From positions 84,869,178 through 84,933,177 of the forward strand of contig OZ038379.1 of NCBI GenBank assembly GCA_964036045.1: a stretch of DNA of 64,000 nt. The letters run 5' to 3'. This document shows, piece by piece, positions 796-63,443 of this stretch. Made by a program: the position numbers and the translations under genes. Source of the stretch: Eutreptiella sp. 'Long Island Sound 2002' (Eukaryota > Euglenozoa > Euglenophyceae > Eutreptiales > Eutreptiaceae). Every line of letters begins with the position of its first letter. Position 1 is the first letter of the stretch. The notes beneath the pieces were generated by a model. The model was given only the letters and a program-made list of their open reading frames with translations, was not told the origin of the DNA and did not search any database.

Positions 796-1242
796 ATGTA
801 ACTGCGAAGTAAAGGCCCAAAGTCTTTCTCGGGTAAAAACCAGGTAAAAACCAGGTAACATGGGTAAAAAAAATCAATAACTTGCTTTCTGTGTGTTTGC
901 TCGCCTTGCCCTCTCTTATGATGTGTAACGGACACGTTTGCATGCAAATAGGCTGAAATGTGGGTGAAAACGGAGGTGTTTTGCCACTTTTACGTCTCCC
1001 GCACCACAACACCACCATGTACACGCAATTATTGCTCTTTACTGCCTTTTTGCGCGCGTAAAAGGGTGTATTTGCGTGGTTACTATAAGCTTAGCTCGGA
1101 CGCAAAAAGGGTCATTTACACACGTAAAAGGGCTTATTTACTTGTCTCGTGAATTCTGTTGCGGACGCAAATTAGGCCTTTTGCGCACGCAAAATCCATG
1201 TAATTGCCTCTTTCACTCTTAGGGGCTTCTCTTTCATGGGAC

Positions 1243-2184
1243 ATGCCTGGCAAGAAGTCCACAGCCAAGGCCGCTGTCCAAGCCCCCGGGGACCCGCAGC
1301 CACCACCCAAGCCCGCACCTCCTCCCCGCACCACCAATGAGCCCACCCGGCACGTTGTTGATGAATATGTGAAGGTGGTGGGTGTGGAAAATGTGGCGGG
1401 AGCTGGGATCCAAGTGTTGGATTGTGCACTCTCGGTGAACGAGATTAAGGGGTTGCCGGCTATCCCCGAGGATGTTTGCTTGGTGAGAGAGCGGCTGCAA
1501 AAATTGCAGCAGGAAAAAGGTGAACCCTTGAAATATTTGTTGAGGGTCAACCTGTAGGCCGGTGCAGTTGCTTTGACCAAGGGGGTTTTGAGCAATTTTG
1601 CTCTGGGCCTATACCACTGGCTGAGCCCTGCCCCAATGGGGATATTGCTGCAACTTAGCGCAGACACCATTGTTTGCCATGATGCAACGTGTCCAAGGCC
1701 CCCAAAAGCAATATGTGTCGGTGTACAATGTGCCGGATGCGGACCGGGAAAAGGAGGCCGCTGACCGACGGATGTGGTCAGACCTCGTCAAGGTGAAACA
1801 TTGGGCAAAGCGCCTCGATACGGACACACACATTTTTTTCCGGGAGTCCAAATTTCAGGAATGGTCGGCCTACGAAGCGATTCAGCCCATGGGTCGACGC
1901 GAGGCCTTGAAAGGACCGGCCATCCCTGATTTGACGCAGCCCACAATTTTTGTAACGCAGGACGATTATTTTGCGCTTGGCATGGGTTGCCCGTCGCCAG
2001 ACATTGCAGTGAAATACCCTGTGTCTCGGCATCCGTTGCCGGAATCCGCCCTCTCGGACCCCCCAGGGATATGAGGCCACAGGCTACCGTTTGGTGGAGG
2101 ACATTCTGCCAGGGGACTTGGTGGATCAGTTATGTGCCGTGCATTTGGAGGGAGAGGAGAACTGGGAAGACATTCTCCTTCACC
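1243..2184 (+). pseudogene. Dioxygenase-like gene of E1, N-terminal part (broken)
   Basis: The frame opens with ATG at 1243 (MPGKKS..., a basic, Pro-rich start) and matches the inverted copy at 25801-23825 almost codon for codon. A TAG at about 1555 replaces the CAG present in T6. Open sequence then resumes in other frames (VLSNFALGLYHWL, then VYNVPDADREKEAADRRMW). The segment contains the family hallmark IPDLTQPTIF followed by LGMG and YPVSRHPLP, which also appears in T1 and T3. The gene is interrupted at 2185 by the left terminus of T9 and continues at 10151. T6 shows that the catalytic barrel lies in the downstream pieces. Non-functional as it stands. Confidence 0.65.
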
Positions 2185-2911
2185 CTTGGTACACGCTAGA
2201 ATACCCAATCTTGTTCTAGCCTAGAATGCGCTAGAGTGGCTAGAACGAAAAAAAGAGGGGGGTACGCAGACCCACGGGAGTAGGGGGGCAGGGGTTTGAA
2301 GGGTGCAAATTGGACCCCTATTACCACACTAGGGGGTCGATACGTTGTTTTTCGGGGGAAAAAATTTGACATGAAATTCAACAAGTACAAAAAACTATTC
2401 TAGGAACGTTCTAGTGGCGCTCTAGCGCCGCCCCGCTAGAACGGCGCTAGAACGTTCCTAGAAGGCTCCGCTAGAACGACGCTAGAACAAAACCATGCAC
2501 ACACATTTGGCAAGTAAAACACACCAATGTGGGAAGGGGGGGGGTTCCATGACACGTAGACACATGGAAACCATCACATTTGGTACATGTCTAGTCATAT
2601 GTGCGCGCGCACACACGCGCACACACACACGCACACATGCACACACACATTTTGACATGGGCACGGGCACTGTGGGGGTGCCCTGCCCTCAAGCCCTTAG
2701 TGGGGGGGGGGCTTTGTTTTTGTCACACATTTTACGTGGGGGGGGGGGGGGGGCTTGACAACTACCTTGGGGGGGGGGTTGGACTGAGGGGTCGGGGAGG
2801 GTGTTCTGTTCTTCGCTTCACATGTGGTTTTTTGTTGGATTTTATTGATGTTGATGAGGAAATGCAAATTTGAAGTTGCAAGTATGCCATGCAATGCTGT
2901 GCAGTGTTGTG
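2063..2911 (+). repeat. Left copy of an ~850-bp direct duplication
   Basis: This stretch carries the end of the first E1 gene piece plus the left arm of T9. It recurs at 7668-8516 in the same orientation with only scattered differences (for example GTGGCTAG versus GTGGGTAG, and GTTCTAGTGG versus GTTCCAGTGG). The two copies flank a block with a LINE fragment and minisatellites. This is the geometry of a very long target-site duplication. Confidence 0.85.
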
Positions 2912-3780
2912 CCGAAGGCGCTGTTACCAAAAGGCAAAAGGCCGGGATGTCTACCCGCGGGTAAAGGTAAACGTGCTGGGCTGTGTGTGTTGTGTGCGCG
3001 CCGTGCGTAAGTGTGTAGGCCTCGGCAAGGGGAGGGGGAGTCGGGGAGACCTGGTGAGTTCGTCTCTGGCGACCGCGCTTATTCCAGGAGCTCCCGCTGC
3101 ACCCCTTCCCTTTCTGCTTGCTGGTGCAGGCGCAGCTCCTGCAACGCCCACGCCATCGTGCTGCCCGGGCCCAGGCGGGCCTTCAGCAGCGTGGCACGCG
3201 CCTTGGCGTGGGCGTACCAGATCCGTATGGACTCCTCCACGACGTGGCGGAGGAACTCCGTGCCCAGCGAGTGGGGCCCCGTACACTCCAGGTGGGCCAG
3301 CTGCATGGAGGGGGTCCGCAGGGCTGCCGCCCACTGCTCCAGCACAGTCGGTTCCCACAGCTGGTGACACACTGGGGCCGCCCGTGGCCCCACCTTCTGG
3401 TCGAGCCACGCTGCGAGGCGCCGGCGGGCTGGCCCCCACTCGTGCGATTGAGCCGAGCAGGCCCACAGGTGGGGCGCCGTCTCGGGCTGTGTCCCGCACA
3501 GGAGGCACGTTGTATCCAGCACCGTGCCCCGGTGGGAGGAACGGTGGGCTAGGACTGCCATGGTCGGGACGTTGTCCATGCGATGCGCCGTGATGTGGCG
3601 CTGCTGGTCGTGGTCGAACCAGTCCAGGGGGAGGCCCCCCCCTGGCATGAAGTTTACCCCCCAGCGGGCCTCATAGATGGCTTGCGCCGGTATGGAGGCC
3701 CGGTCCTGCAACCAGTCACTCAGCGCCGTCGGGGAGAGCTGGCACTGGTCGCGGAAGGGCACTGGGGGGACAAATGAGTA
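2912..3780 (-). pseudogene. LINE-type retrotransposon fragment, C-terminal end of the ORF
   Basis: On the minus strand a frame ending at 3079 encodes a C-terminal domain with a Cys/His cluster of the form CX2CX8HX3C (CLLCGTQPETAPHLWAC) followed by SHEWGPARRRL. It then continues for about 120 residues of Glu/Ala/Leu-rich helix. A CxxC...H..C knuckle close to the C terminus is typical of the zf-RVT region after the reverse transcriptase of non-LTR elements. No RT or endonuclease domain is present. Upstream, the frame runs directly into the 47-bp minisatellite, so the element is 5'-truncated or fused to it. The 3' boundary falls at about 2912, where the 850-bp duplication begins. The LINE clade cannot be told. 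Confidence 0.5.
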
Positions 3781-5010
3781 GCCAACTCCTGCAATGCACT
3801 GCCTCACTGCCCTCGGGCAGTAGGCAGTGCAACTCCTGCAATGCACTGCCTCACTGCCTGGGGGCAGTGGGCATTGCAACTTCTGCAATGCACTGCCTCA
3901 CTGCCCTCGGGCAGTAGGCAGTGCAACTCCTGCAGTGCACTTCCCTGCTGCCTGGGGGTTGCAGGCAGTGCAACACCTGCAATGCACTGCCTCACTGCCC
4001 GGGGGCAGTGGGCAGTTGAACCCCTGCAATGCACTGCCTCACCGCCTGGGAGCAGTGGGCAGTGCAACTTCTGCAATGCACTGCCTGACTGCCCTGGGGG
4101 CAGTGGGCAGTGCCACTCCTGCAATCCACTGCCTCACTGCCTGGGGGCAGTGGGCAGTGCAGCTCCTGCAATGCACTGCCTGACTGCCCTGGGGGCAGTG
4201 GGCAGTGCCACTCCTGCAATCCACTGCCGCACTGCCTGGGGGCAGTGGGCAGTGCAGCTCCTGCAATGCACTGCCTCACTGGCTGGGGGCAGTGGGCCGT
4301 GCAACTCCTGCAATGCACTGCCTCACTGCCCTCGGGCAGCAGGCAGTGCAACTCCTGCAATGCACTGCCTCACTGCCTGGGGGCAGTGGGCAGTGGAACT
4401 CCTGCAATGCTCTACCCCACTGCCTGGGGGAAGTGGACAGTGGAACTCCTGCAATGCGCTGCCTCACTGCCTGGGGGCAGTGGGCAGTGGAACTCCCGCA
4501 ATACACCGCCCCACTGCCCGGGAGGAGTGGGCAGTGCAACTCTTGCAATGCACTGCCTCACTGCCTGGGAACAGTGGGCAGTGCAACTCCTGCAATGCAC
4601 TGCCTCACTGCCTGGGGGCAGTGGGCAGTGCCACTCCTGCAATCCACTGCCGCACTGCTTGGGGGCAGTGGGCAGTGCAGCTCCTGCAATGCACTGCCTC
4701 ACTGCCTGGGGGCAGTGGGCAGTGCAACTCCTGCAATGCACTGCCTCACTGCCTGGGGGCAGTGGGCAGTGGAACTCCTACAATGCTCCGTCCCACTGCC
4801 TGGGGGAAGTGGACAGTGGAACTCCTGCAATGCGCTGCCTCACTGCCTGGGGGCAGTGGGCCGTGGAACTCCCGCAATACACCGCCTTACTGCCTGGGAG
4901 GAGCGGGCAGTGCAACTCCTGCGATGCGCTGCCTCACTGCCTGGGGGCAGTGGGCAGTAGAACGCCTGCAATACACTGCCCCACTGCCTGGGGTCAATGG
5001 GCAGCGGTCA
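3781..5010. repeat. Minisatellite, ~47-bp unit, about 26 copies
   Basis: The repeating unit contains GCAGTGGGCAGTGCAACTCC followed by TGCAATGCACTGCCTCACTG and CCTGGGG, about 47 bp in all. Copies vary at a few positions (GCAACTCC, GGAACTCC, GCCACTCC; CTCGGGCAGTAGGCAG variants), so the array is old enough to have diverged. The unit is rich in inverted GCAGT/ACTGC pairs and could form hairpins. Several frames stay open on both strands; I treat those as by-products. Confidence 0.9.
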
Positions 5011-7667
5011 ATGGTCGGAGTGTCCTGCAGGGCCTGTGGGGATGAAGAACCGGGTACACCAGCCTGGGGGACGGGGAGCCCTGCCCAGGGGGTGGTCGGA
5101 GTGTCCCGTAGGGCCTGCGGGGAGGTAGAATCGGGCACACCGGCCTGGGGGGATGGGGAGTCCTGCCCCAGGGGGTGGTCGGAGCGTCCTGCAGGGCCTG
5201 TGGGGATGTAGATTCGGGCACACCAGCCTGGGGGGACGGGGAGTCCTGCCCAGGGGGTGGTCGGAGTGCATCGCTGGGCCTGTGGGGGGGTAGATTCGGG
5301 CACACCGGCCTGGGGGGACGGGGAGTTCTGCCCAGGGGGTGGTCGGAGCGTCCTCCAGGGCCTGTGGGGACGTAGAACCAGGCACACCGGCCTGGGGGGA
5401 TGGGGAGTCCAGCCCAGGGGGTGGTCGGAGTTTCCTGCAGGGACTGCGGGGATGGACAACCGGGCGCACCGGCCTGGGGGTATGGGGAGTCCTGCCCAGG
5501 GGGTGGTCGGAGTGTCCTGCAGGGCCTGTGGGGAGGCACATTCGGGCACACCGGCCTGGGGGGATGGGGAGTCCTGCCCAGGGGTTGGTCGGAGTGTCCT
5601 GCTGGGCCTGTGGGGAGGTAGATTCGGGCACACCGCCCCGGGGGGACAGGGAGTCCTGCCCAGGGGGTGGTCGGAGTGTCCTGCAGGGCCTGTGGGGACG
5701 TAGAACCGGGCACACCGGCCTGGGGGGATGGGGAGTCCAGCCCAGGGGGTGGTCGGAGCGCCCTGCAGGGCCTGCGGGGATGGACAACTGGGCCCACCGG
5801 CCTGGGGGGATGGGGAGTCCTGCCCAAGGGGTGGTCGGAGCGTCCTGCAGGGCCTGTGGGGACGTAGAACCGGGCACACCGGCCTGGGGGGATGGGGAGT
5901 CCCGCCGAGGGGGTGGCCGGAGTTTCCTGCAGGGCCTGCGGGGATGGACAACCAGGCCCACCGGCCTAGGGGGACAGGGAGTCCTGCCCAGGGGGTGGTC
6001 GGAGTGTCCTGCTGGGCCTGTGGGGAGGTAGATTCGGGCACACCGCCCCGGGGGGACGGGGAGTCCTGCCCAGGGGGTGGTCGGAGCGTCCTGCAGGGCC
6101 TGTGGGGACGTAGAACCGGGCACACCGGCCTGGGGGGACGGGGAGTTCTGCCCAGCGGGTGGCCGGAGTTTCCTGCAGGGCCTGCGGGGATGGACAACCG
6201 GGCCCACCGGCCTGGGGGGATGGGGAGTCCAGCCCAGGGGTTGGTCGGAGTTTCCTGCAGGGACTGCGGGGATGGACAACCGGGCGCACCGGCCTGGGGG
6301 GATGGGGAGTCCTGCCCAGGGGGGGGTCGGAGTGTCCTACAGGGCCTGTGGGGAGGCACATTCGGGTACACCGGCCTGGGGGGATGGGGAGTCTTGCCCA
6401 GGGGTTGGTCGGAGTGTCCTGCTGGGCCTGTGGGGATGGACAACCGGGCCCACCGGCCTAGGGGGATGGGGAGTCCAGCCCAGGGGGTGGTCGGAGCGCC
6501 CTGCAGGGCCTGCGGGGATCGACAACTGGGCCCACCGGCCTGGGGGGATGGGGAGTCCTGCCCAAGGGGTGGTCGGAGCGTCCTGCAGGGCCTGTGGGGA
6601 CGTAGAACCCGGCACACCGTCCTGGGGGGATGGGGAGTCCCGCCCAGGGGGTGGTCGGAGTTTCCTGCAGGGCCTGCGGGGATGGACAACCGGGCCCACC
6701 GGCCTGGGGGGACAGGGAGTCCTGCCCAGGGGGTGGTCTGAGTGTCCTGCTGGGCCTGTGGGGACGTAGATTCGGGCACACCGCCCCGGGGGGATGGGGA
6801 GTCATGCCCAGGGGGCAGTCGGAGCGTCTTGCAGGGCCTGTGGGGACGTAGAACCGGGCACACCGGCCTGGGGGGACGGGGAGTCCAGCCCAGCGGGTGG
6901 CCGGAGTTTCCTGCAAGGCCTGCGGGGATGGACAACTGGGCCCACCAGCCTGGGGGGATGGGGAGTCCTGCCCAAGGGGTGGTCGGAGCGTCCTGCAGGG
7001 CCTGTGGGGACGTAGAACCGGGCACACCGGCCTGGGGGGATGGGGAGTCCCGCCCAGGGGGTGGTCGGAGTTTCCTGCAGGGCCTGCGGGGATGGACAGC
7101 CGGGCCCTCCGGCCTGGGGGGACGGGGAGTCCTGCCCAGGGGGTGGTCGGAGCGTCCTGCAGGGCCTGTGGGGGCGTAGAACCGGGCACATCGGCCTGGG
7201 GGGACGGGGAGTCCAGCCCAGCGGGTGGCCGGAGTTTCCCGCAGGGCCTGCGGGGATGGACAACCGGGCCCACCGGCCTGGGGGGATGGGGAGTCCTGCC
7301 TAGGGGGTGGTCGGAGTGTCTTGCAGGGCCTGCGGGGATGGACAACTGGGCCCTCCGGCCTGAGGGGACGGGGAGTCCTGCCCAGGGGGTGGTCGGAGTG
7401 TCCTGCTGGGCCTGTGGGGACGTAGAACCGGGCACACCGGCCTGGGGGGACGGGGAGTCCTGCCCAGGGGGTGGTCGGAGCGTCCTGCAGGGCCTGTGGG
7501 GAGGTAGAACCGGGCACACCGGCCTGGGGGGATGGGGAGTCCAGCCCAGGGGGTGGTCGGAGTTTCCTGGAGGGCCTGCGGGGATGGACAACCGGGCCCA
7601 CCGGCCTGGGGGGACGGGGAGTCCTGCCCAGGGGGTGGTCGGAGTGTCCTGCAGGGCCTGTGTGGGC
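5011..7667. repeat. Minisatellite, ~82-bp unit, about 32 copies
   Basis: The unit runs TGGTCGGAGTGTCCTGCAGG, GCCTGTGGGGACGTAGAACC, GGGCACACCGGCCTGGGGGG, ATGGGGAGTCCTGCCCAGGG plus GG. Alternating subtypes (ACGTAGAACC, ATGGACAACC and GGTAGATTC variants) suggest higher-order structure of two to three units. It joins the 47-bp array directly at about 5011 and stops where the second copy of the 850-bp duplication begins. On the minus strand one frame stays open for more than 900 codons although 82 is not a multiple of 3. This reflects the absence of stops in a GC-rich unit. Confidence 0.9.
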
Positions 7668-8516
7668 CCGAGGAATATGAGGCCACAGGCTACCGTTTGG
7701 TGGAGGACATTCTGCCAGGGGACTTGGTGGATCAGTTATGTGCCGTGCATTTGGAGGGAGAGGAGAACTGGGAAGACATTCTCCTTCACCCTTGGTACAC
7801 GCTAGAATACCCAATCTTGTTCTAGCCTAGAATGCGCTAGAGTGGGTAGAACGAAAAAAAGAGGGGGGTACGCAGACCCACGGGAGTAGGGGGGCAGGGG
7901 TTTGAAGGGTGCAAATTGGACCCCTATTACCACACTAGGGGGTCGATACGTTGTTTTTCGGGGGAAAAAAATTTGACATGAAATTCAACAAGTACAAAAA
8001 ACTATTCTAGGAACGTTCCAGTGGCGCTCTAGCGCCGCCCCGCTAGAACGGCGCTAGAACGTTCCTAGAAGGCTCCGCTAGAACGACGCTAGAACAAAAC
8101 CATGCACACACATTTGGCAAGTAAAACACATCAATGTGGGAAGGGGGGGGGTTCCATGACACGTAGACACATGGAAACCATCACATTTGGTACATGTCTA
8201 GTCATATGAGCGCGCGCACACACGCGCACACACACACGCACACATGCACACACACATTTTGACATAGGCACGGGCACTGTGGGGGTGCCCTGCCCTCAAG
8301 CCCTTAGTGGGGGGGGGGGCTTTGTTTTTGTCACACATTTTACGTGGGGGGGGGGGTTGACAACTACCTTGGGGGGGGGGTTGGACTGAGGGGTCGGGGA
8401 GGGTGTTCTGTTCTTCGCTTCACATGTGGTTTTTTGTTGGATTTTATTGATGTTGATGAGGAAATGCAAATTTGAAGTTGCAAGTATGCCATGCAATGCT
8501 GTGCAGTGTTGTGGTG
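7668..8516 (+). repeat. Right copy of the ~850-bp direct duplication
   Basis: Matches 2063-2911 in the same orientation. It starts inside the E1 gene at CCCGAGGAATATGAGG, which agrees with the T6 copy of that gene and so retains the ancestral bases, and continues through the left arm of T9. Downstream the sequence runs on into the rest of T9, so this copy holds the native right-hand junction and the left copy holds the native left-hand junction. Confidence 0.85.
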
Positions 8517-9444
8517 AGTGTTGTCTCGTAAGGTGTAAAGTGGTGTCATGTAGTGTGGTGTGATGTGGTGTGCTGCGGTCTAATGTAGTGTGTGATCTGC
8601 TATGGTGTGCTGTACATTGGGGGGGGGGGGGGTAGTGTGTTGTGGTCACATGCCGTGCCCTGTGGTGTGCTGTGTTGTCATGTGGTGTGGTCGGGTGTCA
8701 TGTGGTGTGGTCCGGTGTCATGTGGTGTGGTGTGGTGTAGTGGGGTATCCTGCGATAGGGTTGCCTATCTGGGTGGTTGAAGGGTGTGTTGGTTGCTTGG
8801 CAGGTGGGTTTGTTTGGCAGCTTGGGTTGTTTGTTTGGTGTTTGGCAGGGTGGGGCACGCTGTGTGGTGTGTGCACCCTGTGGTGTTAGGTGCCGTATGC
8901 TGTTGTGTGCTCTGTGATGTCATGTCTGTGGGTACCATGTAATTACTGCCATTCCAAGGGAGGGGGGGGGCTGATAAGCAGTCACTATTCTTGTTCTAGC
9001 GGCGTTCTAGGGAGGCGTTCTAGCGGTGATCTAGCGACGCTCTAGAGCATCTCTAGAACGCCGCTAGAACGGTTCCCGCGAACGCCGCTAGAACAAAAAT
9101 ATTTAATGCTTACCAGCCCCCCCCCCCCTCCCTTGGAATGGCAGCAAATACACGTGTACTCACAGATGTGACATCACAGAGCATACAACAGAAAGCCACA
9201 GAACACACCACACGGTGCAGACACCACACAGCATGCCGCAGCTGACTAAACACCCAACAAATAACCCAAGCTGCTAAACAACACCACCTGCCAAGCAACC
9301 AACACACCATTCAACCAACCCCACCAACCACACCACATGGAAACACATCACTCACAGGGCACGTCATGTGACCACAACACACTACCCCCCCACACAGTAC
9401 AACACACCACAGCCAAGCACATACTACAGCAGACTGCACGTCAA

Positions 9445-9515
9445 TACACCACACCACACCACACCACACCACACCACACCACACCACACCACACCACACC
9501 ACACCACACCACAGG
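9445..9515. repeat. (ACACC)n microsatellite
   Basis: About 13 uninterrupted ACACC units lie within the right arm of T9. The matching position of the left arm (about 8690-8740) has an impure TGTGGTG tract on the complementary strand, so the array expanded after the arms formed. Confidence 0.85.
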
Positions 9516-10150
9516 ACACGAGGCCACACCACGTGACACCCGACCACACCACATGACTCTGCAACACACCACGGCGAACCCCATCAGACCACAACACAAC
9601 ACACCACGCCACTGCACAGTACAACACACCACAGCAGATCACACACCACAATGGACTGCAACACAGTACACCACACCACTTTACACCTTTCGAGACAACA
9701 ACACACCACAACACTGCACAGCATTGCATGGCATACCTGCAACTTCAAAATTGCATTTCCTCATCAACATCAATAAAATCCAACAAAAAACCACCTGTGA
9801 AGCGAAGAACAGAACACCCTCCAGACCCCTGAGTCCAACCCCCCCCCCGAAGGTAGTTGTCAAGCCCCCCCCCCCCCCCCTCCCCCTGAAAAATGTGTGA
9901 CAAAAGCAAAGCCCCCCCCCCCCCCCCCCAACTAAGGGCTTGAAGGGAGGGCACCCCCACAGTGCCCGTGCCTGCGTCAAAGTGTGTGCGTGCATGTGTG
10001 TGTGTGTGTGTGTTTGTGTGTGTGATGATTTGTTTTTTGTGTTCTACCCAGGCTATTGTATCGTTCTAGTATTGATCTAATCTAGCCTAGAACGATCTAG
10101 CTACAAATTTCTAGGCTAGATCAAGATTGGGTCTTATAGTGTGCACCAAG

Positions 10151-14974: not shown

Positions 14975-14984
14975 AATTCACAGA

Positions 14985-20250: not shown

Positions 20251-20279
20251 GGGGGTCGAAACCAAAAACCCCTCCCCCC

Positions 20280-53366: not shown

Positions 53367-53529
53367 CCCTTCCCTGCGTGCGCGCTACAGGGTATTGCCG
53401 CGCGATGGCTCAGTGCGCACTACAAAACTATAGCGCGCAGCATAGCGCGCGCTATGGCTCGGGGTCTTGGGTTTGTAACCCCATGTCCTAATAAGCAGGG
53501 CAAAAACGCCTATTTTTCTAAAGTTTCAG

Positions 53530-54416
53530 ATGCTTCCGGCACCGCATGTGACGCTGTCAATATCAGGAAAGATTGCCAGCATTTTGGGCCCCCACTATGG
53601 GTGGTCCCTGTGGAAGAACGAGGACCTTTTGGCGGACCTAGTTGAGTTTTTTTGCTCAGGGTCTGCCGTCCAACGGTCTTTGTGGGCCAAGTTGGAAAAA
53701 AGGGTCCCTGTGGCTGAAGCAGAGAAGAAGCGTCGCAGGACTGAGGCTGCCAACGCCGTCAGACCCCTGTCGGTGGTGGACTTGGTCCTACTCCTGAAGA
53801 TTCCAAGAAGAAGGTATTATTGCGCGCGCTTTGCATGTGACATTGCGCGCACTTCCGCTCATAGCGCGCGCTTCGTTGACTTCTGCGCGCGCTACGTCCT
53901 CATGTTGCGCGCGCTATTTTACTCAGGTACAAAGATTTGATTACTTGGACGAGAAGTAAGGTCCCCACACACCTTTTTTCTCTCCCGTCCTATGCTAGTT
54001 TTGCCACAGAATGGAACCAGCTTGCAAGAAGGCAGCATTTACAGGTTGCCGTGCACACAGATGGGGTCACAGTCTTTTCGCAGTGGCCCCTGCAGCACTT
54101 TTCTGACTATATATTTTCCTTTGATTCCATTGTTTCTAACCTAGAATACCCCAGGGAGTGCCAAGGAGAGCTGTGGATCATTGTGAGGGGGGATGGGTTG
54201 CCTTGTGGGGGGGAATCGTGGTGCCAGATGCCCATTTCCTTTGCCAACCATGGTCACTTGGCAAGGACGTTGTCCTACCACTGGACTGTTAACGTCGCCC
54301 TTCGTGGTGAGAAGTCCACCTCTGTGTTGTCCCAGGTCTGGGCTAACAATCTTGCTTTTCTGCAGAGTGCCCTTGACAGTGGTGTGGTTCCCATCCGGGG
54401 TGCATCCAGACCCTAA
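53530..54416 (+). pseudogene. T5 transposase, N-terminal part with one intron
   Basis: Exon 1 (ATG at 53530, or an acceptor TTTCAG just before it) reads SISGKIASILGPHYGWSLWK and ends LKIPRR. The GT-AG intron 53814-53926 is removed in frame to give RYKDLITWTRSKVPTHLF. Exon 2 contains RECQGELWIIVRGDGLPCGG and VNVALRGEKSTSVLSQVWAN, paralleling T8 (FVVRGDGYPCAGGSW, VTGDKDMLALGPIWAQ). RGDG is the candidate first catalytic acid. The frame ends about 40 bp before the T1' insertion, and the rest of the gene lies at 59372-60285, partly inverted. Confidence 0.55.
53814..53926 (+). other. T5 transposase intron made of GCGCGC repeats
   Basis: Donor AAG|GTATTA and acceptor TTTTACTCAG|GTACAA bound 113 nt holding five TGCGCGCGCT-type units, the T5 family repeat. 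Splicing gives an uninterrupted frame (PRR joined to RYKDL). Confidence 0.7.
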
Positions 54417-54854
54417 CCACTGCTGTGTGCATCCTCATGTCACCCCCAAGGATGTACCCTTCGTGAACCGGCCGTTTGAATCTGAGATTCACGGTACCGT
54501 GAATTTCACCTATTGTTGCTGTTTTTTGCTCGTAACTTGGTGCCATTGTGTGCTTTTGTCGTGCTATCTTCGCCCAAAGAAAGATCCAACAAATGTGTGC
54601 AATTTAGAGGTTTGAAGTAGTCGCATGGTTCAACACGTTTGGTGAGATTCGCGTGAATGTGAAATTCACGCACCCAAATTCACGCATAAATTCACGCTAG
54701 ATTCACATATCCACGAGAATGTGAAATTCGCACGAAATTCGTACGAATTTCGTGCGAATTTCGTGCGAATTCGTACGAATCGGCCCCAATTTTGTCTTGT
54801 CACTGCTATTTGTTGCACACATTGGATATTGAACAATTTGTTTTGTAGATCCCT

Positions 54855-55015
54855 AGATACACGCTAGCACGCACAATTTCGTTCTAGCCTAAAACGACAT
54901 CGCGAGGGCATTCTAGCCTACAACATCTAGCTAGAACGTAGACTAGAACAGGAATCATTCTAGCCTAGATGTATTCTACACTAGAACACAAATAACAAAT
55001 CAAAACAATACACAT
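54855..55015. repeat. T9-family fragment inside T1'
   Basis: ATACACGCTAGCACGCACAA and TTCGTTCTAGCC resemble the T9 left terminus (TACACGCTAGAATACCCAAT, TTGTTCTAGCC). CTAGAAC and GTTCTAG-type half-sites recur to about 55000. No second terminus is evident, so this is a remnant. Confidence 0.5.
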
Positions 55016-55465
55016 TACATTTCTTAATCTTTGCTGCATTGCTCACAAATTTGTTGGGAAGGGCATAGGTTATAGGTGATAGTGGATGCAGTGGTGGGGG
55101 GGTCCGTTGGGGTCAAACCATTGTTGCATTGCTCACACAGTTGTTTGGAAGGGCAAAGGTCATAGTTGCTAGTAGATGCATGAGGGTGGGGTGGGGGGGT
55201 CCATTGGGTCAAACCATAGGAGCGTAATCAACGACGTCTAGGGTTGGGAAGGGGGGGGGGGGCAAGGAGACCTCCCACTTACAGCCCCTGAGTGTCTGGG
55301 TGTGGGGTTATGAGGGTGTCTTGCTTGTTGCAGTGCGGTTAAGGTTAGGGAGGGTATCCTTTTTCTCTTCACAGGTTTTGTGTATCCCCATGGCTCTCAT
55401 GTGCTAGTAGCTCATGCTTTGGCAGCAAATAATCAAGTCAGCGCCGACTTTACAGTATGCTCCCG
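55016..55465. other. Spacer with a ~110-bp duplicated unit
   Basis: TTGCTCACAAATTTGTTGGGAAGGGC... (about 55032) recurs as TTGCTCACACAGTTGTTTGG... (about 55127), a tandem pair of about 95-100 bp including GGGGTCAAACCATTG. No gene is visible up to the rRNA fragment. Confidence 0.5.
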
Positions 55466-55604
55466 TGTCTACTCGGAACTGTGTACTACGCAGGGGAATC
55501 TGACTGTTTAATTGAAACACAGCTTTGCGATGGGACCTGCTGGCTGGTTCCGCGAGGTGCTCTGATTGTCAATGCAACGACATTTAGCCAAGCGCGGGTA
55601 AACA

Positions 55605-55648
<44 letters not shown>

Positions 55649-55975
55649 GACTGATTATTGACGCGCATGAATGGATCAACGAGATTCCTGCTGTCCCTAG
55701 ATGCTGGCTGGTGAACCAACCGCCAAGGGAACGGGCTTGGGTGTTCCAGCGGGGAAAGAAGACCCTGTTGAGTTTGACTCTAGTCTGACAGAGTGCAGCA
55801 GCATGGAGGGTGTACCACAGGTGGGAAGTGCGCGCCAACTCATGGCATTGATCATGGCCTTCGCGGCCATCTCGACTGTCGCCTCTTCCTTCTGGATGAG
55901 GCTCCGTGCTGCTACGCGCAAGCTTGCAGTGAAATACCACTACCTCCACAGCCGCTTTACTAATCGGATGATTCG
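55466..55975 (+). rRNA. Large-subunit (25S/28S) rRNA fragment, divergent
   Basis: The stretch follows eukaryotic LSU rRNA in order: CAGGGGAATCTGACTGTTTA (55492), TTTGCGATGG, CCAAGCGCGGGTAAACAGCG, GGGAGTAACTATGACTCTCT, CTCTTAAGGTAGCCAAATGC (about 55623), GACGCGCATGAATGGATCAA, GCCAAGGGAACGGGCTTGG, GCGGGGAAAGAAGACCCTGT, TTGACTCTAGTCTGAC and GTGAAATACCACTAC (55931). This is the peptidyl-transferase half (domain V). The variable helices differ strongly from textbook LSU sequences and no other rRNA domain is present, so it is a displaced fragment or pseudogene. It is eukaryotic, not organellar or bacterial: TTAAGGTAGCCAAATGCC is the nuclear form. Confidence 0.85.
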
Positions 55976-55990
55976 GGTACGGGTGTGTAT

Positions 55991-56023
<33 letters not shown>

Positions 56024-56090
56024 TGTGTGTGTGTGTGCCGGGGGGCAGGTGTAGGGAAATGTGTGTGCTTGGTTCTTTGGTCACCTCACG

Positions 56091-56129
<39 letters not shown>

Positions 56130-56260
56130 TGCGCGCGTGTGTGTGTGTGTGTGTGTGTGTGTGCGGTGTGTGTGTGTGTGTATGTGTGTGTGTGTGCCGG
56201 GGGGGCACGTATCGGGAAATGTGTGTGGGTGTGGGGACTTCGGTACATGCGTAGGGGGTG
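55976..56260. repeat. (TG)n microsatellites
   Basis: Long TG tracts at about 55985-56040 and 56093-56205 are broken by GGGGGGCA-containing spacers (GTGTGCCGGGGGGCAGGTGT and GTGTGCCGGGGGGGCACGTA), that is, two copies of a TG-tract-plus-spacer unit. Confidence 0.9.
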
Positions 56261-56279
56261 TTGGTGTGGCTCTTCGTGC

Positions 56280-56500
56280 AGTGTCCTGCAAAAATGGTAC
56301 GAAATTCGTACGAAGTTCGTATGAAATTCGTGCGAATTTCGTACGAAATTCGTGCGAATTTCGTACGAATTTCGTACGAAAAGTGCCTCACAGATAGGTA
56401 CTGTGAATGTGGTTGTTACGAAATTCGTACGAATTTCGTACGAAATTCGTACGAACTTCGTACCAATTTCGCACGAAGTTCAAACAATTTGCATGAACTT
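56280..56500. repeat. TTCGTACGAA array inside T1'
   Basis: More than fifteen TTCGTACGAA/TTCGTGCGAA half-units in tandem with a 10-11 bp step, interrupted once by GGTACTGTGAATGTGGTTGT. An inverted counterpart is at 57305-57490 (ending GACACTGCACGAAGAGCCAC, the complement of GTGGCTCTTCGTGCAGTGTC at 56266), so 56266-57500 is bounded by inverted repeats. Confidence 0.85.
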
Positions 56501-56629
56501 GTGTCATTTTTTTGTGTGTGTGGGTGTGTCTGGTCAGAGGGGTTGTTGTTTGTGTGGGCGTGGGTATATGGTATGTGCGTGCCTGGGTAATATGTGCATG
56601 CATTGGTGGTTCTTGGGTTCTTGGGTTTT

Positions 56630-57280
56630 TTTGTTGAATCACGTGGGACGATACTTTTGTGCTGTTTGTAGTTTGTGACTGTCTGTCGTTTGTGTTTGTT
56701 GCTGCTCATTGTCATGATGTGTGTGTAATGCCTGCTTTTCGGCTGTGTTGGTATCGCTGTTTTGCTTGCTGCTTGTTGTGCTTCGTGTGTCTTCTGCTCC
56801 TCATTGGTGACTGTTGCTGATGACCTGACTATGTTGTTCTTCTGTGTTGTTGTTGTGTTGCTGTGCTGTGTGCTATGGGTGGGTGTGGATGGTCGGATGA
56901 GTGGCTGCCTGTTGAATCATGTGGGACAATACTTTTGTGCAGTTTGTGGTTTGTGACTGTCTGTCGTTTGTGTTTGTGGCTGCTGATTGTCACGATGTGT
57001 GTGTAATGCCTGCTTTTCGGCTGTGTTGGTATCGCTGTTTTGCTTGCTGCTTGTTGTGCTTTGTGTGTCTTCTGCTCCTCATTGGTGACTGTTGCTGATG
57101 ACCTGACTGTGTTGTTCTTCTGTGTTGTTGTTGTGTTGCTGTGCTGTGTGCTATGGGCTCAATGTGTTGTTCTTCTGTGTTGTTATGGTGCTGCTGTGCT
57201 GTGTGCTATGGGCTGAATGTGTTGTTCTTCTGTGTTGTTGTGGTGTTGCTGTGCTGTGTGCTAAGGGCTGAGTGTGTTTG
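56630..57280. repeat. ~280-bp tandem duplication and ~53-bp tandem units
   Basis: GAATCACGTGGGACGATACT to CTGTGTGCTATGGG (56636-56878) is repeated as GAATCATGTGGGACAATACT onward (56912-57155). The 3' part (TGTTGTTCTTCTGTGTTGTT, GTTGCTGTGCTGTGTGCTA) is repeated two or three more times to 57270 as 53-bp units. Non-coding. Confidence 0.85.
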
Positions 57281-57499
57281 TTCTGGAGAAAAATGATACA
57301 AATTCATGCAAATTGTTCGAAATTCGTACGAAATTCGTACGAAGTTCGTACGAATTTCGTACGAATTTCGTAACAACCACATTCACGGTACGTATTCACG
57401 GTACTTTGGGGGCGAATTTCGTACGAAATTCGTACCAAATTTGCACGAATTTCGTACGAATTTCGCACGAATTTCGTACCATTTTTGCAGGACACTGCA

Positions 57500-58610
57500 C
57501 GAAGAGCCACACCAACACCACCTATGCATGCAACAAGTTCCCCACACCCACACACATTTCCCTGTACCTGCCCCCCCGGCACACACACACCCACAAACAC
57601 ACGCACACGCACACACACACACACACACACACCCATGCACAAAACACACACATACCCTCGATGAAAGCAAACAGCCCCCCACTCGACCCACACCCACACA
57701 CTGCCCGCCCACACACCCTCATACGTACCTGGACAGTGGATGTGTCACGGTTAGATGTTTAGGGGGGGGGGGGGTTCTGTATGTGTGTGTGTGCGTGTCT
57801 GCCTGTGTGTGTGGATGGGTTTCTGTGGATGGATATGTGTGTGTTTTTCTGTGGGTGGGTCGGTGTGTCCATGTGTAGTTGGGTGTGTGGTTGTGTGTGT
57901 TTGTGTGTACGCGCGTGTTGCTGTGAGGTGCGGGAAGGGTGTGTCTGTATGTGCGCGTGTGTGTGTGTGTGTGTGTGTGGCTTGTGCGTATATGTGGTTT
58001 GGTGCTCCTCACATCCTCACCCTCCCACACACACACACAGGCGCACGCCCACACGCAGAACCAAAAAGACAGTCATGCACCCCCCCCCCCCCCACCCACA
58101 TACCATCAATGAAACGTACCTTGACAGTGGATGTGTCACAGTTAAATGTTTAGGGGAGGGGGGTTCTGTGTTTGTGTATGTGTGTCTGCCTGTGTGTGTG
58201 TGGATGGGTTTGTGCGGATGCGTGTATGTGGGTCGGTGTGTCCATGTGTAGTTGGGTGTGTGGTTGTGTGTGTTTGTGTGTGCGCGTGTGTTGGTGTGAG
58301 GTGCGGGAAGGGTGTGTGTGTATGCGTGTGTATGGCTTGTGTGTATATGTGCATGGTTTGGTGTTCCTCACATCCTCAACCCCCCCCCCCCACACACAGG
58401 CGCACGCCCACACCCAGAAACAAACAGACAATCGTACATGTACCCCCCCCCCCCCACACACACACACCCACATGCCATTAGTGGAATGAAGCCGCCCTGC
58501 CACCCCACCCACACCCACACCCACAAACTGCCCAGCCACACATACGCACACACACCTGCATAGTGGATGTGTCGTGGTTAGGTATGTGGGGCGGGATCAT
58601 TGTGGGTGTG

Positions 58611-58651
<41 letters not shown>

Positions 58652-58990
58652 ATTAGTTTGTGCGCGTGGGTGCGTGTTTGTGTGTGGGTGTGTATCCATG
58701 GGTCCGTGGTTGTGTATGTGGGTGTGTGGGTGTTGGTGTGAGGTTTGTGACGGGTTTGTGTGCGTATGTGGTCGGGTGGCCCCCACATCCTCACACACAC
58801 CAACACACAGACGCATGCCCGCACGTAGACACAAACAGGAAGTCATGCATCCACCCACATGCAAACCCAACCATACACCCATACACAAACCCACACAAAT
58901 CCACACACCCCACACAAAGGCACACCCACACACATGTGCACATGTTGCTCGTAGCCAAGGTGCCTGCAAGGGTGCATTGGGGGGGGGGGG
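57500..58990. repeat. ~400-430-bp satellite, three diverged copies, TG/CA rich
   Basis: Copies start at GACAGTGGATGTGTCACGGT (57733), GACAGTGGATGTGTCACAGT (58123) and ATAGTGGATGTGTCGTGGTT (58560). Each begins with a GGGGGG tract, runs through TG-rich then CA-rich halves (TCCTCACATCCTC in the middle) and ends in a CCCACA tract. The opposite composition of the halves would allow long hairpins. No gene. Confidence 0.8.
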
Positions 58991-59371
58991 ACCCCGGGTG
59001 TTAGGACAAATGAGGGGGTGCACAAGGGTGAAATTTGTATGAATTCACGTGAATTCACGTGAAATTCGTACGAAATTCGTGCGAATTTCGTACGAATTCA
59101 CGTGAATTCACGCCTGTGAATCGGCTACAGGCTTGCCGGGTTTCGGCACCTCTCGTTTTGGGCACGGTTCGGACATGATGAATGCTTTTGGGGCGGGACT
59201 TTCATTGGATGATGTGTAATGAAGCCGGGGGAAGAATTTTGGCCCCTCAAATCCTTCGGAAGGATCCAAAAATATGGCATTTTCCCCCAAAAACCTCAAA
59301 ATTTGGGTAAATTCACGTGAAATTCACGCAATTATTCAAACGGCCACTTAACGGCCGTTCACGAAGGGTAC

Positions 59372-59825
59372 AGAGGGGGCCAGGTCCTCCCAAACCTTTA
59401 GAAGGCACCAAGTCTCTTCCCCATCTGGCTCTGCCGTCCCCTGTAGTGCTATGTGACAACCAGACCTGTGAAGAATAGCCTGAACAGAGACCCTAGTACT
59501 GGGACGCACAGACTTGGCCAATCTGCGTACCAAGGACCTGCCTCCCTACAAAAATCAGAAGGTGCAGAACACATGGTATAAGGTGACGCCGCCTCAGAGG
59601 CACCTTCAACAACCTGCTCTGGACAACACCAAATATATGCATGGGCCTGCACTTGGCCCCAGCTACAATCAGCCCTAGCAACTGCTTATCTCGCTCGGTG
59701 GTTCTATCCACATCCTGTTGCAACCACGTTGCACTGGACTTGCACCACGTCATGTAACTGAACAGACTACCTGCCATCCAATGTGTAGTGACACCCGACA
59801 ACCGACGCAGCCAAGGGCTATCCCC
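59372..59825 (-). pseudogene. T5 transposase, middle part, inverted
   Basis: The minus strand reads CGGDSPWLRRLSGVTTHWMA, then YMTWCKSSATWLQQDVDR and VAGAKCRPMHIFGVV. The motif GGDSPWLRR matches GGDQPWLRRKTG, which in T8 follows the RGDG block. The coding strand here is opposite to the T5 exons on either side (53530-54416 and 59826-60285), so this segment, which abuts the right end of T1', has been inverted. Confidence 0.5.
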
Positions 59826-60285
59826 ACCGCAGAAAATCCTGCAGCGTTTTGCCATGTACATACTACTGGGGGACATGTATGGCACAATGTTTGTAGAGGG
59901 TGCATTGCAGGCTCCAGAGGTTGCCCAGGCTTTCCGGAGGTGGGTTTGTCCAGCAATAAGATCACCTTATATTAACTGGATGTTGCACAATGCTGCAGTC
60001 ACTATTCAGGCCATACGGCCCTATGGCCTAGGAATGTTTTCGGGGGATCTTTTGGAAGGGAGCAACAGGGTGCTGAAGGACATTTGGTCCTCCTTTTGTG
60101 ATAGAGGTGGGGGGACAGGAACCCTTGTGTCGCGCCGCATTAAGATGCTCAGGCAGGTTAATGAGCGTCTGTTCCTGTACTTTGAAGTACCAAGGTGGAA
60201 TGGGACCTCCAGAAGCAACCTGTGCAATGCACAAAAATTGGCTGACGACGTTGGGGCATATTTTGCGGATGAGGAACCGTGGTAG
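59826..60285 (+). pseudogene. T5 transposase, C-terminal part
   Basis: The frame reads ILQRFAMYILLGDMYGTMFV, APEVAQAFRRWVCPAIRSPY, IQAIRPYGLGMFSGDLLEGS and NRVLKDIWSSFCDRGGGTGT, then RQVNERLFLYFEVPRW. It stops after YFADEEPW at 60285. The SGDLLEGSNRVLK block aligns with SGDVVESVNYILK of T8 and probably holds the last catalytic acid. Downstream come the T5 palindromes. Confidence 0.55.
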
Positions 60286-60740
60286 CGCGCGCTATTTGTG
60301 TTTTAGCGCGCGCTACATGCTATTTAGTGCGCGCAATGACCACTATCGCGCGCGCTATGCTGTTTTCAAGCGCCGGAACCCTTGAAATCGCGATATATAA
60401 TTGGAAGTAGCGTGCTATGACTACGCACTTCAAATGTGCCTCCAATTTGAAATGCATTGACAGACACAGAGATTTGTTCCTTTTCGTCGGGTTTTTTTGG
60501 TGATTTCGATTTTTTTGTTACTGCATTTTCCTTTTTGTATTGCTGCTGGAACAGGGGTACTTTAATGTAACCCTCTTGCCCATGCAGCCCGTGGGCTGGG
60601 GGTATCCGCCTCCTGCAGCACCGCCAACAACTGCTGCAGGGGCCACAGGAGCAGGTGCGACACCGCACCCACCGCCACATGCAGCTGTACAACCTGGACT
60701 GCAGCAGCCGTCCACGACGCCGTGGAGCATGCAGCCACAG

Positions 60741-60874
60741 GTACTTGCCGTGCGCACTACTGTTTCCGTTGCGCGTGCTACGCTCTTGTTGTGCGTGCTA
60801 GTTGTCTCGTTGTGCGCACTACGCACGTCCTCGTTGCGCGTGCTTTGTCCTGTTTTCCGCAAACGCTGTCCCAG
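60741..60874 (+). other. T5 accessory-gene intron carrying family repeats
   Basis: Donor CCACAG|GTACTTG and acceptor CTGTCCCAG|CAGCTG; phase 0 on both sides. It contains GTGCGCACTAC, GCGCGTGCTACG and GTGCGTGCTAG, diverged forms of the T5 palindrome. Confidence 0.65.
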
Positions 60875-61057
60875 CAGCTGACCCAGCTCTCCCCAACTCA
60901 GCCTCTGTGGCCCGCGCCGCAGTCCCCGTTACGAGCTGCCTCACAGCAGCTGTCTCCCATGGTGTTCCCCGGTGGGTCGCCCACCTTGGGCTCCCCATTG
61001 CGCGGCAGTCTTTCAGTGGGCCAAGTGCAGCAAGTGCTCTTCGGCCCACTGCCAGTG

Positions 61058-61165
61058 TAGCAGCAGCAGCAAATGCAGCAGCAGCAAGTGCACGCTGCGG
61101 CACAGCAAGTCGGCAGCCCAGAACAGCAGCGGCAGCAGCAGCAGCAGCAGGTCCAACCAAGACAG
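61058..61165. repeat. CAG trinucleotide repeats
   Basis: Runs of CAG with interruptions (GCAAATG, GTGCACGCTGCGG) encode polyglutamine. A second cluster lies at 61815-61912. Both are within the T5 accessory gene. Confidence 0.85.
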
Positions 61166-62190
61166 CAGCAACCCCAAGTGCAAGCACACTTTCAGTCTCC
61201 CCCACCCGGGCCACGTACGGGCGTCACCTTCAGCAGCGACTTCAAGAACGGAATTTGGCCCAACCAAAACAGCACCATTTGCGCCCAAGGGCCCGACTGG
61301 GCATGGCTGAAGGACGTGACACCGGCCTACCTCTTCGAGGTGGCCTTCTACAAATTCTGGCGCCAAAGGGCCACGGCCATTGCCAAGATCCCAGACGGAG
61401 CCGTGAAACCCTCCTGGCATGACGAGAGCATTACTGGCCACTGGTGGAGTCTGGCGAACCTGTTGAACCCCTCCGTGCCAACCCAAGAAGGACAAGCTGC
61501 CTGTGGACACTGCAAGGTGGAGGAGTACGAGCTGCTGTTCTCGTGCTGGGCAAGTTATGGGTGGGGTCACGTTCGGACCCACACGCCTCCGGGTGCCACC
61601 GCAAAGACCATCCACCACTTCTACTTCAACAAGGACCCACCGAGCTTCATCAACGCAACCGACGCGGGGGCAATGGCCTTCAAGAACGAGTGCGCCTCGG
61701 TGAGAAGTGCGGGTGCCAGTTTGCTGCGGGGGTCAGCCAAGAAAGGAGCCAGTGCCGCAAGGGCACTTGCAACCGGCGCCAAAGTCAAAACCACGGCGGT
61801 CAAGGACGAGGAGCAGCCGCAGCAGCAGCAAGTGCAGCAGCAGCAGCTCCAACAGCAGGCAGCCGTGCAGCAGGCAACACTGCAGCTGCTCCGGCAGCAG
61901 CAGCGGGTGCATGGGATGCAGCGTTCTAGGGCGTGGTGCGGAACCCCTAGTTAGAACGCAATTTCTGGAACACCCACCTACCCTCAATTTTGGGGCAAAC
62001 CACCTAAAAAAATGGATTCAGCACCCTCAAAAACCCCCCATCCCCTTTCTTTCCCCACATAACCCTCATTGTAGGGGTGGTTTTTGGGGGGGGGGTCAAA
62101 GAGTTAGAGCACAGTTAGAACAGAGTTAGAACGCAGTTAGAGCACCTTGCTCTAACTAGTTATCGCGCTAGTTATCGCGCGATAACTCAG

Positions 62191-62742
62191 TTATCGCGTA
62201 GGTATCGTGTTGTGGGTGAGGGGTTGGGGGAACCAACCATCTGACTTCCCCTTCCCCTTACCCGGTCGGATCCTTACCTTCTGGACACTACTCATGAGGG
62301 GGCTGTGGGGCTTCTCCTTCCTCCCCCCAGCCCCCACCCCCCCCGCATCCTCCTCCTCCTCCTCCACTTCCTCCTCCTCCTCCTCCTGACCCACATATAG
62401 GGTCGTCTTCGTCCCCGCACCCTTCTCGGCATGAGCGGTGATGGACTCCACCACGGCGTCCACATCCTCGGTATGAAGCTGGATCAAAAATCCAGCAACC
62501 CCTTGATTTACCTCTAGCAACTCGAAGATGTAGTTGCTGAGAACCAGGGGGTCTCGCTTGTCCGCCATGAAGGGGGACTTATGGACAAGGAGTCCAAAGT
62601 CCACACCATGTTCAAAGCGGGTCGCCACAGGGCGCCTCACATTGGCATCACCCATCGTAAACCCCTCAGGACCGCCAAGGCGACGGACCCCAAGGAGCTT
62701 TTGATGGTGCTCGCACCAAGTGTGGGCAGCAGCAAGGGCCAT
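62191..62742 (-). pseudogene. Family-B cargo gene, N-terminal part within MITE 2
   Basis: ATG at 62742 starts MALAAAHTWCEHHQKLLGVR. It matches T4's 51617-51190 almost residue for residue (FEHGVDFGLLVHKSPFMADK, LEVNQGVAGFLIQLHTEDVD), with a longer Glu run (VEEEEEDAGG) and an uninterrupted frame through the Gly/Lys linker that is frameshifted in T4. It ends in terminal sequence (QPLTHNTIPTR). No oxygenase domain. It shows what the intact N-terminal domain looks like. Confidence 0.55.
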
Positions 62743-62799
62743 TATCAAAGAATACGAAGGCTTTGAGAGCTACAGCGAAAAGGGGAAACATAAAATGAA

Positions 62800-62945
62800 G
62801 CGCGATAACTCACGCGATAACCCACGCGATAACTAGGTTATCGCGCGATAACCCCCGCGATAACCCCCGCGATAACTAGGTTATCGCGCGATAACCCACG
62901 CGATAACTAGTGCTCTAACCCCGTTCTAACCCCGCGATAACTAGT
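62800..62945. repeat. Family-B palindromes in MITE 2
   Basis: Tandem CACGCGATAACTAGGTTATC and GGTTATCGCGCGATAACC units, followed by GCTCTAACCCCGTTCTAAC. Same order as 39735-39870 and 51675-51830. Confidence 0.85.
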
Positions 62946-63074
62946 TAGAGCACACAAAGATCAAATCGCAAAAAGTGCAAAACGGGCAATATCGAGCAAA
63001 CGAAACATGGAAGGCACATTGTTGCATCATAGTGCACCCATGTAACATGTGAAATTCCGGGTTCCAACCATATT

Positions 63075-63443
63075 CCTTTGTCTACAGAAGCGCCATTTTT
63101 GGGCTTCCACTGACCATACCTGCTAGTACGTTATCCCCGTAAGCTAGGAGAACGCGCAGAACGCGGATAACGCTCCGGAACGCCCCGGAACGCGGATAAC
63201 GCGGAGAACGTGGAAAACGCTTCCAGAAGCATGTGCGGAAGCACTGAAGCAGAACGCGGAGAACGCGGATAACGCGTAAAACACAGCACACCTATGTTGG
63301 GGGGGCCGCGTCCTCACAGTTGGGTATCCAGCCTACGCGGTTGGTCCACCCCAGGTTTCGCACTGGTCCCCATGGGTGGGGATGGCAGAGGCTTGGCGGC
63401 CATGACCTTCTCGATCCTACCACGGCCGCCTCCGCCACCCCGT
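63075..63443. repeat. Terminal region of a piggyBac-like element with CGCGGATAACGCG repeats
   Basis: CCTTTGTCTACAGAAGCGCC starts immediately after the broken MITE. At 63150-63285 the units GAACGCGGATAACGC and GCGGAGAACG recur six to eight times. This is the side downstream of the transposase stop, as expected for a 3' end. CCTTTG after a TTAA remnant fits piggyBac-type termini, but the second terminus lies outside the window. Confidence 0.5.

Follow-up and report, generated by a model that had tools for sequence, protein, structure and literature searches.

Clusters of family-specific palindromes in RAG1-fold DNA transposons and neighbouring elements of Eutreptiella sp.

A 64,000-nucleotide stretch of the genome of Eutreptiella sp. 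'Long Island Sound 2002' (contig OZ038379.1, positions 84,869,178 to 84,933,177; G000:C2:84869178-84933177) contains DNA transposons inserted into one another. The whole stretch is called the window here and is part of a 2.28-Gb genome of 2205 contigs. Seven families in the window, T1, T3, B (T4 is its 4.6-kb copy), T5, T8, T9 and A, carry short repeated words, most of them rich in CG. Clusters of family-specific palindromes are a real and orderly feature of the RAG1-fold transposons among them and of some other elements beside them. Several of these DNA transposons have RAG1-fold transposases, are CMCT-like and have 2-bp target-site duplications (TSDs). Three further families, T1b, T1c and T10, were included in the analysis. 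Genomic loci compared with the window carry L-labels, and proteins carry P-labels.

The sequence-only reading had given each of the seven families a word of its own. Exact word counts in the window were compared with 100 first-order Markov resamples. The T1 word TTCGTACGAA was found 22 times (null mean 0.02), always inside T1. The T3 word TTGGCGCGCCAA (3 sites, null mean 0.01), the B 18-mer (6 sites, null mean 0), its 10-bp core ATCGCGCGAT (10 sites, 0.01) and the T5 word TAGCGCGCGCTA (3 sites, 0) were likewise all inside their own elements, as were the only two sites of the full A palindrome (null mean 0). The counts and positions given earlier for T1 (22), T3 (3), B (6) and T5 (3) were reproduced exactly. 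TTCATAA of T8 was counted 31 times on both strands (null mean 3.9), 29 of them inside T8. CTAGAAC of T9 had 20 of its 29 sites inside T9 (null mean 2.8), and the A half-word TTTTGCG had 21 of 29 inside A (null mean 10). The nine stray T9 words were located in B terminal inverted repeats (TIRs; five words), of which CTAGAAC is also a part, and in a T9-like stretch of a T1 copy (four words, 54881-54981). Confinement to one family was partly confirmed: it held for five of the seven families as written (T1, T3, B, T5 and, on two sites, the full A palindrome), almost for T8 and, for T9, only in part. It failed for the A half-word and for an 8-bp core, TCGCGCGA, common to T1b, T1c and B.

Genome-wide counts were made with the same pattern reversed as the control. 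The B word had 2838 sites (control 0), the T1 word 18557 (2006), the T5 word 1477 (19), the T1b word 1915 (493) and the T10 word 4078 (1). A 296,900-base sample was then scanned for palindromic 10-mers recurring within 150 bp. The scan gave 171 clustered pairs of 13 words, against at most one pair in any of ten Markov resamples. Two or more pairs were seen for nine words: TTCGTACGAA, TTCACGTGAA and GTGAATTCAC at T1 loci, TAACTAGTTA and ATCGCGCGAT at B, TACGGCCGTA at T10, TGGCGCGCCA at T3, AGCGCGCGCT at T5 and TTCGCGCGAA at T1b. Four words had a single pair, and one of these, TCATATATGA, was in the T8 of the window.

The same bases were used for a cross-family test of six families, including T1b and T10. 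The references were the families' sequences with the words masked, and a margin of 150 bp was allowed. Among 227 words, 212 fell inside sequence of their own family or inside this margin around it, and 14 were near no reference; eight of the 14 formed one T10 cluster in L012. A single word, a TTCGCGCGAA in a T1 copy, was found only with another family, and one T5 word was close both to its own family and to a B copy. Seventeen T1b words counted as own; eight of them came from L026, a 99.8% duplicate of L025 including the flank and thus not independent, and one was in a T1c copy. The own-family share in this sample was favoured by the choice of loci, which had been taken near words of T1, B and T5 and near genes of T1b and T1c.

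Related families were compared by transposase and word. The T1b transposase (P0073) had 59% identity to that of T1 over 76% of the query. The T1b copy in L025 has TIR TGTACCCTTTGCGAA, nearly that of T1, and TSD TA. It contains eight TTCGCGCGAA, one TTCGTGCGAA and no TTCGTACGAA, whereas six T1 copies contain 5-23 TTCGTACGAA and 0-1 TTCGCGCGAA. Two further T1b gene matches on C1 (27270807 and 42864709) were both ringed by the T1b word among the word sites listed. A side observation was that seven T1b gene copies with 613-aa frames are present within 0.8 Mb (C3:170.96-171.74 Mb, including L025 and L026); recent segmental amplification looks likely because the two compared copies are nearly identical, flanks included. 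The T10 transposase (L014:888-2510, E 1e-71) was obtained from a profile scan of the sampled loci. Its word, GTATACGGCCGTATAC, was seen only after the transposase match, three times before the gene and twice after it in 22-bp steps. At C1:22796484-22803517, T10 word positions form four clusters of 4, 7, 3 and 2. T1c (P0102) is an old family with 68% protein identity to the L025 gene. It was rejected as a third sister with a clear word of its own, as its three copies were too decayed.

The clusters had a common layout. In T1, T1b and B, words were present between genes and, at either end, at a distance of roughly 200-330 bp. The clusters started at 277, 2326, 3863 and 6022 of 6337 bp in T1 (L019), at 278, 2383, 4068 and 6175 of 6438 bp in T1b (L025), where the fourth is a single word, and at 249, 2118, 4378 and 6769 of 7097 bp in B (L024). 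A second B copy (L018) agreed within about 40 bp. T3 had three clusters in a copy without delimited ends. T5 differed: its first cluster starts at base 9, inside the TIR, and a half-word, GCGCGCTA, is in the left TIR. Internal clusters, which the sequence-only reading had described, were present in T1, T4 and T5. Because the listed open reading frames (ORFs) are on the minus strand, three of the four clusters in T1 and B are at or before an open-frame start. Family-specific motif arrays were found in gaps without ORFs, as in VANDAL elements, the non-coding status of the gaps being taken from ORF positions. Two short B derivatives keep their TIRs and at least one cluster.

Spacings between neighbouring words were mostly near whole helical turns (11, 21-22, 32-33, 42-44 and 64 bp). 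For 30 distinct spacings, which are not fully independent within one family, R was 0.67 at 10.75 bp, the best of seven periods tried (approximate p 1.6e-6). At 10.5 bp, p was 1.0e-5.

The transposases of T1, T3, T4, T1b and T10 are homologous, as is that of A in its C-terminal part; yet their words differ, as had been proposed for related machinery. Transposase identity ran from 59% down to 18% across the series and was 29% between T4 and T10. T1 and T1b were about 59-61% identical, with 230/356 residues (65%) in the aligned core and 116/226 (~51%) outside it. In alignment A4, D179, D255, C278, C281, H484, H489 and E509 (T1 numbering) were invariant in all eight sequences. No column was invariant in the 21-row alignment A2, which includes fragments and decayed copies. 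The CMCT order D, D, C(2)C, H(3-4)H, E was present, and from this order and spacing the invariant columns are probably catalytic and zinc residues. The transposases showed the features of a RAG1/Transib-like fold. CMCT families other than Transib/RAG are not in the VIA-align list, and their absence excludes nothing. None of the 21 members of A2 matched Pfam tnp2 at E <= 1; the Pfam scan gave three unrelated families with one member each (E 0.11-0.22). P0037, P0075, P0106 and P0132, on small contigs of 1.4-3.0 kb, are relatives of the T1/T4 transposases (34-44% identity). Since at least some of these four come from other sequence sets, the group probably extends beyond this genome.

TSDs were read by eye from the flanking sequence. 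They were 2 bp long in B (9/9), T1 (5/5), T5 (4/4 clear pairs) and T1b (1/1). Those of B were TG, TG, AG, AA, GG, TT, TG, CG and TT, so they were not TA only. B ends in TGGGATGC, and T1 and T1b end in TGTACCC. Neither 5'-CA..TG-3' ends, CACA-type (heptamer-like) ends nor CACTA-type ends were seen among these elements, and neither were the 5-bp TSD of Transib/RAG-like elements and the 3-bp TSD of CACTA elements. As excerpted, the account of the CMCT group (ESTA, Plavaka, EnSpm, Mirage, Chapaev and Transib) gives C(2)C and H(3-4)H after the second D and before the last E, likeness to RAG1, and TSDs of 2-5 bp (PMC12730594). Our transposons resemble the group in all three respects. They differ from it in their ends, since most CMCT elements in the excerpt begin with 5'-CA, and from ESTA in having 2-bp TSDs of many sequences, whereas ESTA has TA only (PMC12730594). 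The ends and the 2-bp TSDs also differ from RAG-like and Transib elements; AanRAGL has a 5-bp TSD and CACA-type ends in the excerpted description (PMC9435367). No published name for these families was found in the literature, the comparison being made without a library of named families.

The sequence-only reading knew of no such rule for a transposon group. This did not stand, as CACTA and VANDAL elements are precedents. VANDALs are a Mutator-type group. Galileo ends reportedly contain multiple THAP-domain binding sites (PMC3688188), a further likely precedent. In the part of the CACTA literature used here, subterminal motifs differ from family to family and within one species, and divergent proteins of the elements are the presumed binders; in soybean Tgmt* and maize En/Spm, binding by a second protein of the TNPA/TNP1 type is known or presumed (PMC2613891). 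Like CACTA/EnSpm elements, ours have direct and inverted repeats near both ends, with family-specific motifs. Unlike them, they also have clusters between genes, their words are short exact palindromes, their TSDs are 2 and not 3 bp, and their ends are not CACTA. According to the VANDAL excerpt, Arabidopsis elements have motif arrays that are specific to the family and occupy introns and other non-coding parts; VANC proteins bind these motifs and co-evolve with them (PMC5735166). The short motifs are uncommon elsewhere, whether in other elements or in related VANDALs, and related VANC proteins differ in their targets. The likeness concerns the arrays. The VANC21 motif as printed there is non-palindromic and in one orientation (PMC5735166), and our elements have a RAG1-like fold.

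The accessory ORFs diverged to different degrees. Between T1 and T1b, the middle ORF was 30% identical over 133/327 residues, and gene 2 was 42-48% identical. Two T4 accessory ORFs matched T10-associated DNA at 27-32%, some of this DNA being assigned to T10 by a word cluster alone. For the T4 ORF at 49969-50601, the L024 relative matched such DNA with about 32% identity, the two pieces being from L012 and L014. Three other B ORFs had no match in T10-associated DNA. Gene 2 of T1 has an open frame that enters a word cluster (L019:7095-7141, P0163), so some predicted proteins end in word-coded residues (EIRTKFVRISYEF).

The most likely explanation, which by analogy with CACTA or VANDAL/VANC we consider probable as a whole, is that the clusters bind an element-encoded dimeric protein. 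Bound to the subterminal pair of clusters, the protein would help to assemble the transposition complex. Bound to internal clusters at or before ORF starts, it would control or un-silence the element genes. Protein and word may change jointly in a lineage; clusters at the old positions would then take the new word, and the family would split from its relatives and become insulated from them. The T1 middle ORF is the first candidate for this reader because CACTA and VANDAL elements read their motifs with fast-diverging accessory proteins, and such a protein is slightly favoured over the transposase. An extended form of this explanation is held with low confidence. It supposes an address frame of four slots, two subterminal and two internal, whose letters would be swapped wholesale in each lineage together with the dimeric reader. 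The palindrome would be both a docking site and an epigenetic promoter tag, and at least six to seven RAG1-fold families would co-reside without using each other's signals.

Alternatively, the transposase itself may bind the palindromes through its N-terminal part, the internal clusters being spare or regulatory copies. We regard this as possible and rather doubtful. The two subterminal clusters at similar distances from both ends of T1, T1b and B agree with it, as do the half-word within the T5 left TIR and the different words of T1 and T1b, whose transposases are less alike outside the aligned core. However, it leaves the clusters before several ORFs unexplained, the N-terminal part matched no Pfam domain, and CACTA elements, as excerpted, are thought to use a second protein (PMC2613891). 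The clusters may also be epigenetic landing pads, with CpG palindromes methylated by the host and cleared by an element protein, either VANC-like or a TET/JBP-like dioxygenase, so that the word would serve as an anti-silencing tag; we put this forward only tentatively. Clusters contained about 10-18 CpG per 100 bp versus 3-7 in the rest of each element, an excess partly built in because the words themselves contain CpG. In the 296,900-base sample CpG was depleted (observed/expected 0.68) and TG was in excess (1.28), the pattern that CpG methylation would leave. Gene 2 of T1/T1b is conserved, as are two accessory ORFs of T4/T10, and all show HxD...H-like patterns by eye, and fungal CMCT elements carry TET/JBP genes in the excerpted account (PMC12730594). 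Set against this, the accessory ORFs (T1 gene 2 and T4) had no Pfam match and no relevant PDB sequence match, and the structure model of P0164 had a mean predicted local distance difference test score (pLDDT) of 29.8, too low to support a dioxygenase. The 2-oxoglutarate dioxygenase reading of T1 gene 2 and the T4 ORFs was dropped for want of such backing and is retained only as part of this rival. It is improbable that local tandem duplication and concerted evolution produced the words incidentally in non-coding gaps, with drift by family and no binding protein. The T1 clusters are indeed 11-bp tandem units with copy numbers of 5-23, clonal families make any old repeat look private, and an 11-bp unit yields helical spacing for free. 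But drift does not explain why all words of T1, T1b, T3, B, T5 and T10 are palindromic, nor why clusters stay at fixed places in T1, T1b and B while all switch to the same new word, and the spacings of other families (21, 22, 43 and 64) are also near whole turns.

Several observations weigh against words that are private to a family and read by its own protein. The T8 and T9 half-words lack CpG, which also counts against an epigenetic tag, and are imperfect palindromes. In T5, T8 and T9, which also have words, profile search found no transposase of this group, so the rule would be broader or less strict than a single transposase group. B, T1b and T1c have the core TCGCGCGA in common, so words are private at full length and not always at the core. 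T1c retains this core in 4, 3 and 0 copies in its three decayed elements. Its persistence at 68% identity and its presence in B suggest that a few bases, or the flanks, may carry the specificity. It also bears on the proposal that words evolve quickly between families: T1 and T1b do differ, but T1c speaks against quick change at every step. The coiled-coil ORF of T4 had no match in T10, the 525-bp B derivative has no left cluster, and spacings of 26 and 35 in T10 and 89 in B are off phase.

Element limits in the window were drawn by us from our comparisons, those of T9 and A being approximate (Table 1). A copy 1 encloses T9, T1 and T8. A short B is inside T3, T4 is inside a retroelement-like ORF, and T1 copy 2 and another B are inside T5. 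T8 was rejected as the owner of the transposase end at 22615-23124. A T3-like match spans the T8 insertion, with residues 194-241 at 17831-17986 (weak, E 0.5) and 242-430 at 22648-23187, so the gene is one of family A, with T8 inserted in it. The T1 transposase is a single open frame in L019:3659-5422. CTAGAAC-type words were seen in three T1 copies (window 54848-54990, L005 near 6878 and L008 near 7426) and not in the L019 copy; in the window copy they occupy a subterminal, T9-like stretch. The T9 interior contains tandem arrays of 26 x 47 bp (3783-5004) and 32 x 82 bp (5012-7662). The T5 segment carrying T1 copy 2 (54415-59848) is inverted relative to other T5 copies, which extend about 2.2 kb past the end of the window T5 at 61911. 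Retroelement-like ORFs at 43983-46061 and 34233-35378 have a zinc knuckle and a weak match to GIY-YIG, whose E of 1.5e-4 is only slightly under the cut-off, and an 840-aa ORF (L017:5698-8217) has a weaker GIY-YIG match (E 0.048). As a guess, these are possibly Penelope-like elements. B, T1, T3, T5 and T10 recur jointly in the same islands, often nested (B is beside T5 at many loci), for example on C1 near 4.79-4.83, 9.79-9.80, 18.34-18.41, 24.02-24.06 and 29.26-29.28 Mb and in the entire window. It looks as if the elements favour each other or the same chromatin.

Table 1. Transposons, genes and word clusters in the window
Feature	Position (strand)	Details
T1 copy 1	10524..17419	TIR T(A/G)TACCCTTC; TSD TG (2 bp)
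T1 copy 1 words	10800, 10833, 12959, 14998, 17125	5 x TTCGTACGAA
T1 transposase	10980..12777 (-)	Two overlapping frames by profile search: 10980-12014 (E 4.9e-126), 11929-12777 (E 1.6e-90)
T1 middle ORF equivalent	14158..14913 (-)	Counterpart of L019 6125-7108, from alignment position only
T1 gene 2 region	15352..17033 (-)	ORFs 15352-16455 and 16311-17033; aligned by position to the L019 part encoding P0164 relatives
T1 copy 2	54453..59372	TSD GA (2 bp); 17 x TTCGTACGAA; within T5
T3	37621..41368, approximate	TTGGCGCGCCAA at 37870, 37890, 41191; split by short B element
T3 transposase pieces	38159..39695 (-)	Profile search: 38159-38773 (E 1.3e-61), 38553-39695 (E 4.1e-112)
Short B derivative, 525 bp	39530..40054	Both TIRs; TSD CG; right-end cluster 39728-39832 present, left cluster gone
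T4 (4.6-kb B copy)	47421..52003	TIR TGGGATGCAGCGTTCTAGG; TSD TT
T4 clusters	47668-47735, 49530-49692, 51674-51782	Three, versus four in full-length B copies
T4 transposase	47808..49562 (-)	One in-frame stop (48339-48341); frame open in L024:1162-2919
T4 accessory ORF	49969..50601 (-)	Dioxygenase-like by eye only; no Pfam match
B copy inside T5	61912..63074	Match to full B stops ~57 bp short of right end; clusters near 62156-62180, 62800-62907
T5	53372..61911	Left TIR CCCTGCGTGCGCGC; words at 53443, 60283, 60304; interrupted by T1 copy 2
T8	18000..22632	TIR-like ends TATGAAA(A/G)GTAGT; 29 half-words TTCATAA; inside A transposase gene
T9	2184..10155, approximate	Half-words CTAGAAC; inside A copy 1
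Family A copy 1	566..23590, approximate	Split around T9, T1, T8; alignment to copy 2 starts at 794
Family A copy 1 words	near 575-1190 and 23473-23575	TTTTGCG..
A transposase, C-terminal part	22648..23187 (+)	50-51% identity to T3 across 189-193 aligned positions; one in-frame stop
Family A copy 2	23973..26248 (-)	Inverted; 88-93% identity to copy 1 in three stretches; T9 and T1 sites unoccupied

The clusters look like a family-specific address label, a principle with precedents in CACTA and VANDAL elements. It takes an unusually clear form here, and one that is new in its palindromes, in the four-slot layout common to families, in the phasing with the helix and in the group of transposases. 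The relatives of the antibody-gene recombinase gain a group that combines a RAG1 fold with 2-bp target duplications and uncommon ends. Related elements in one genome, with transposases from 59% to 18% identical, have different palindromes at matching places in those that were laid out, and they form a natural series. The series opens a long-standing question to test: how a lineage can switch its recognition signal and stay mobile, and whether switches of this kind separate families that share a genome.

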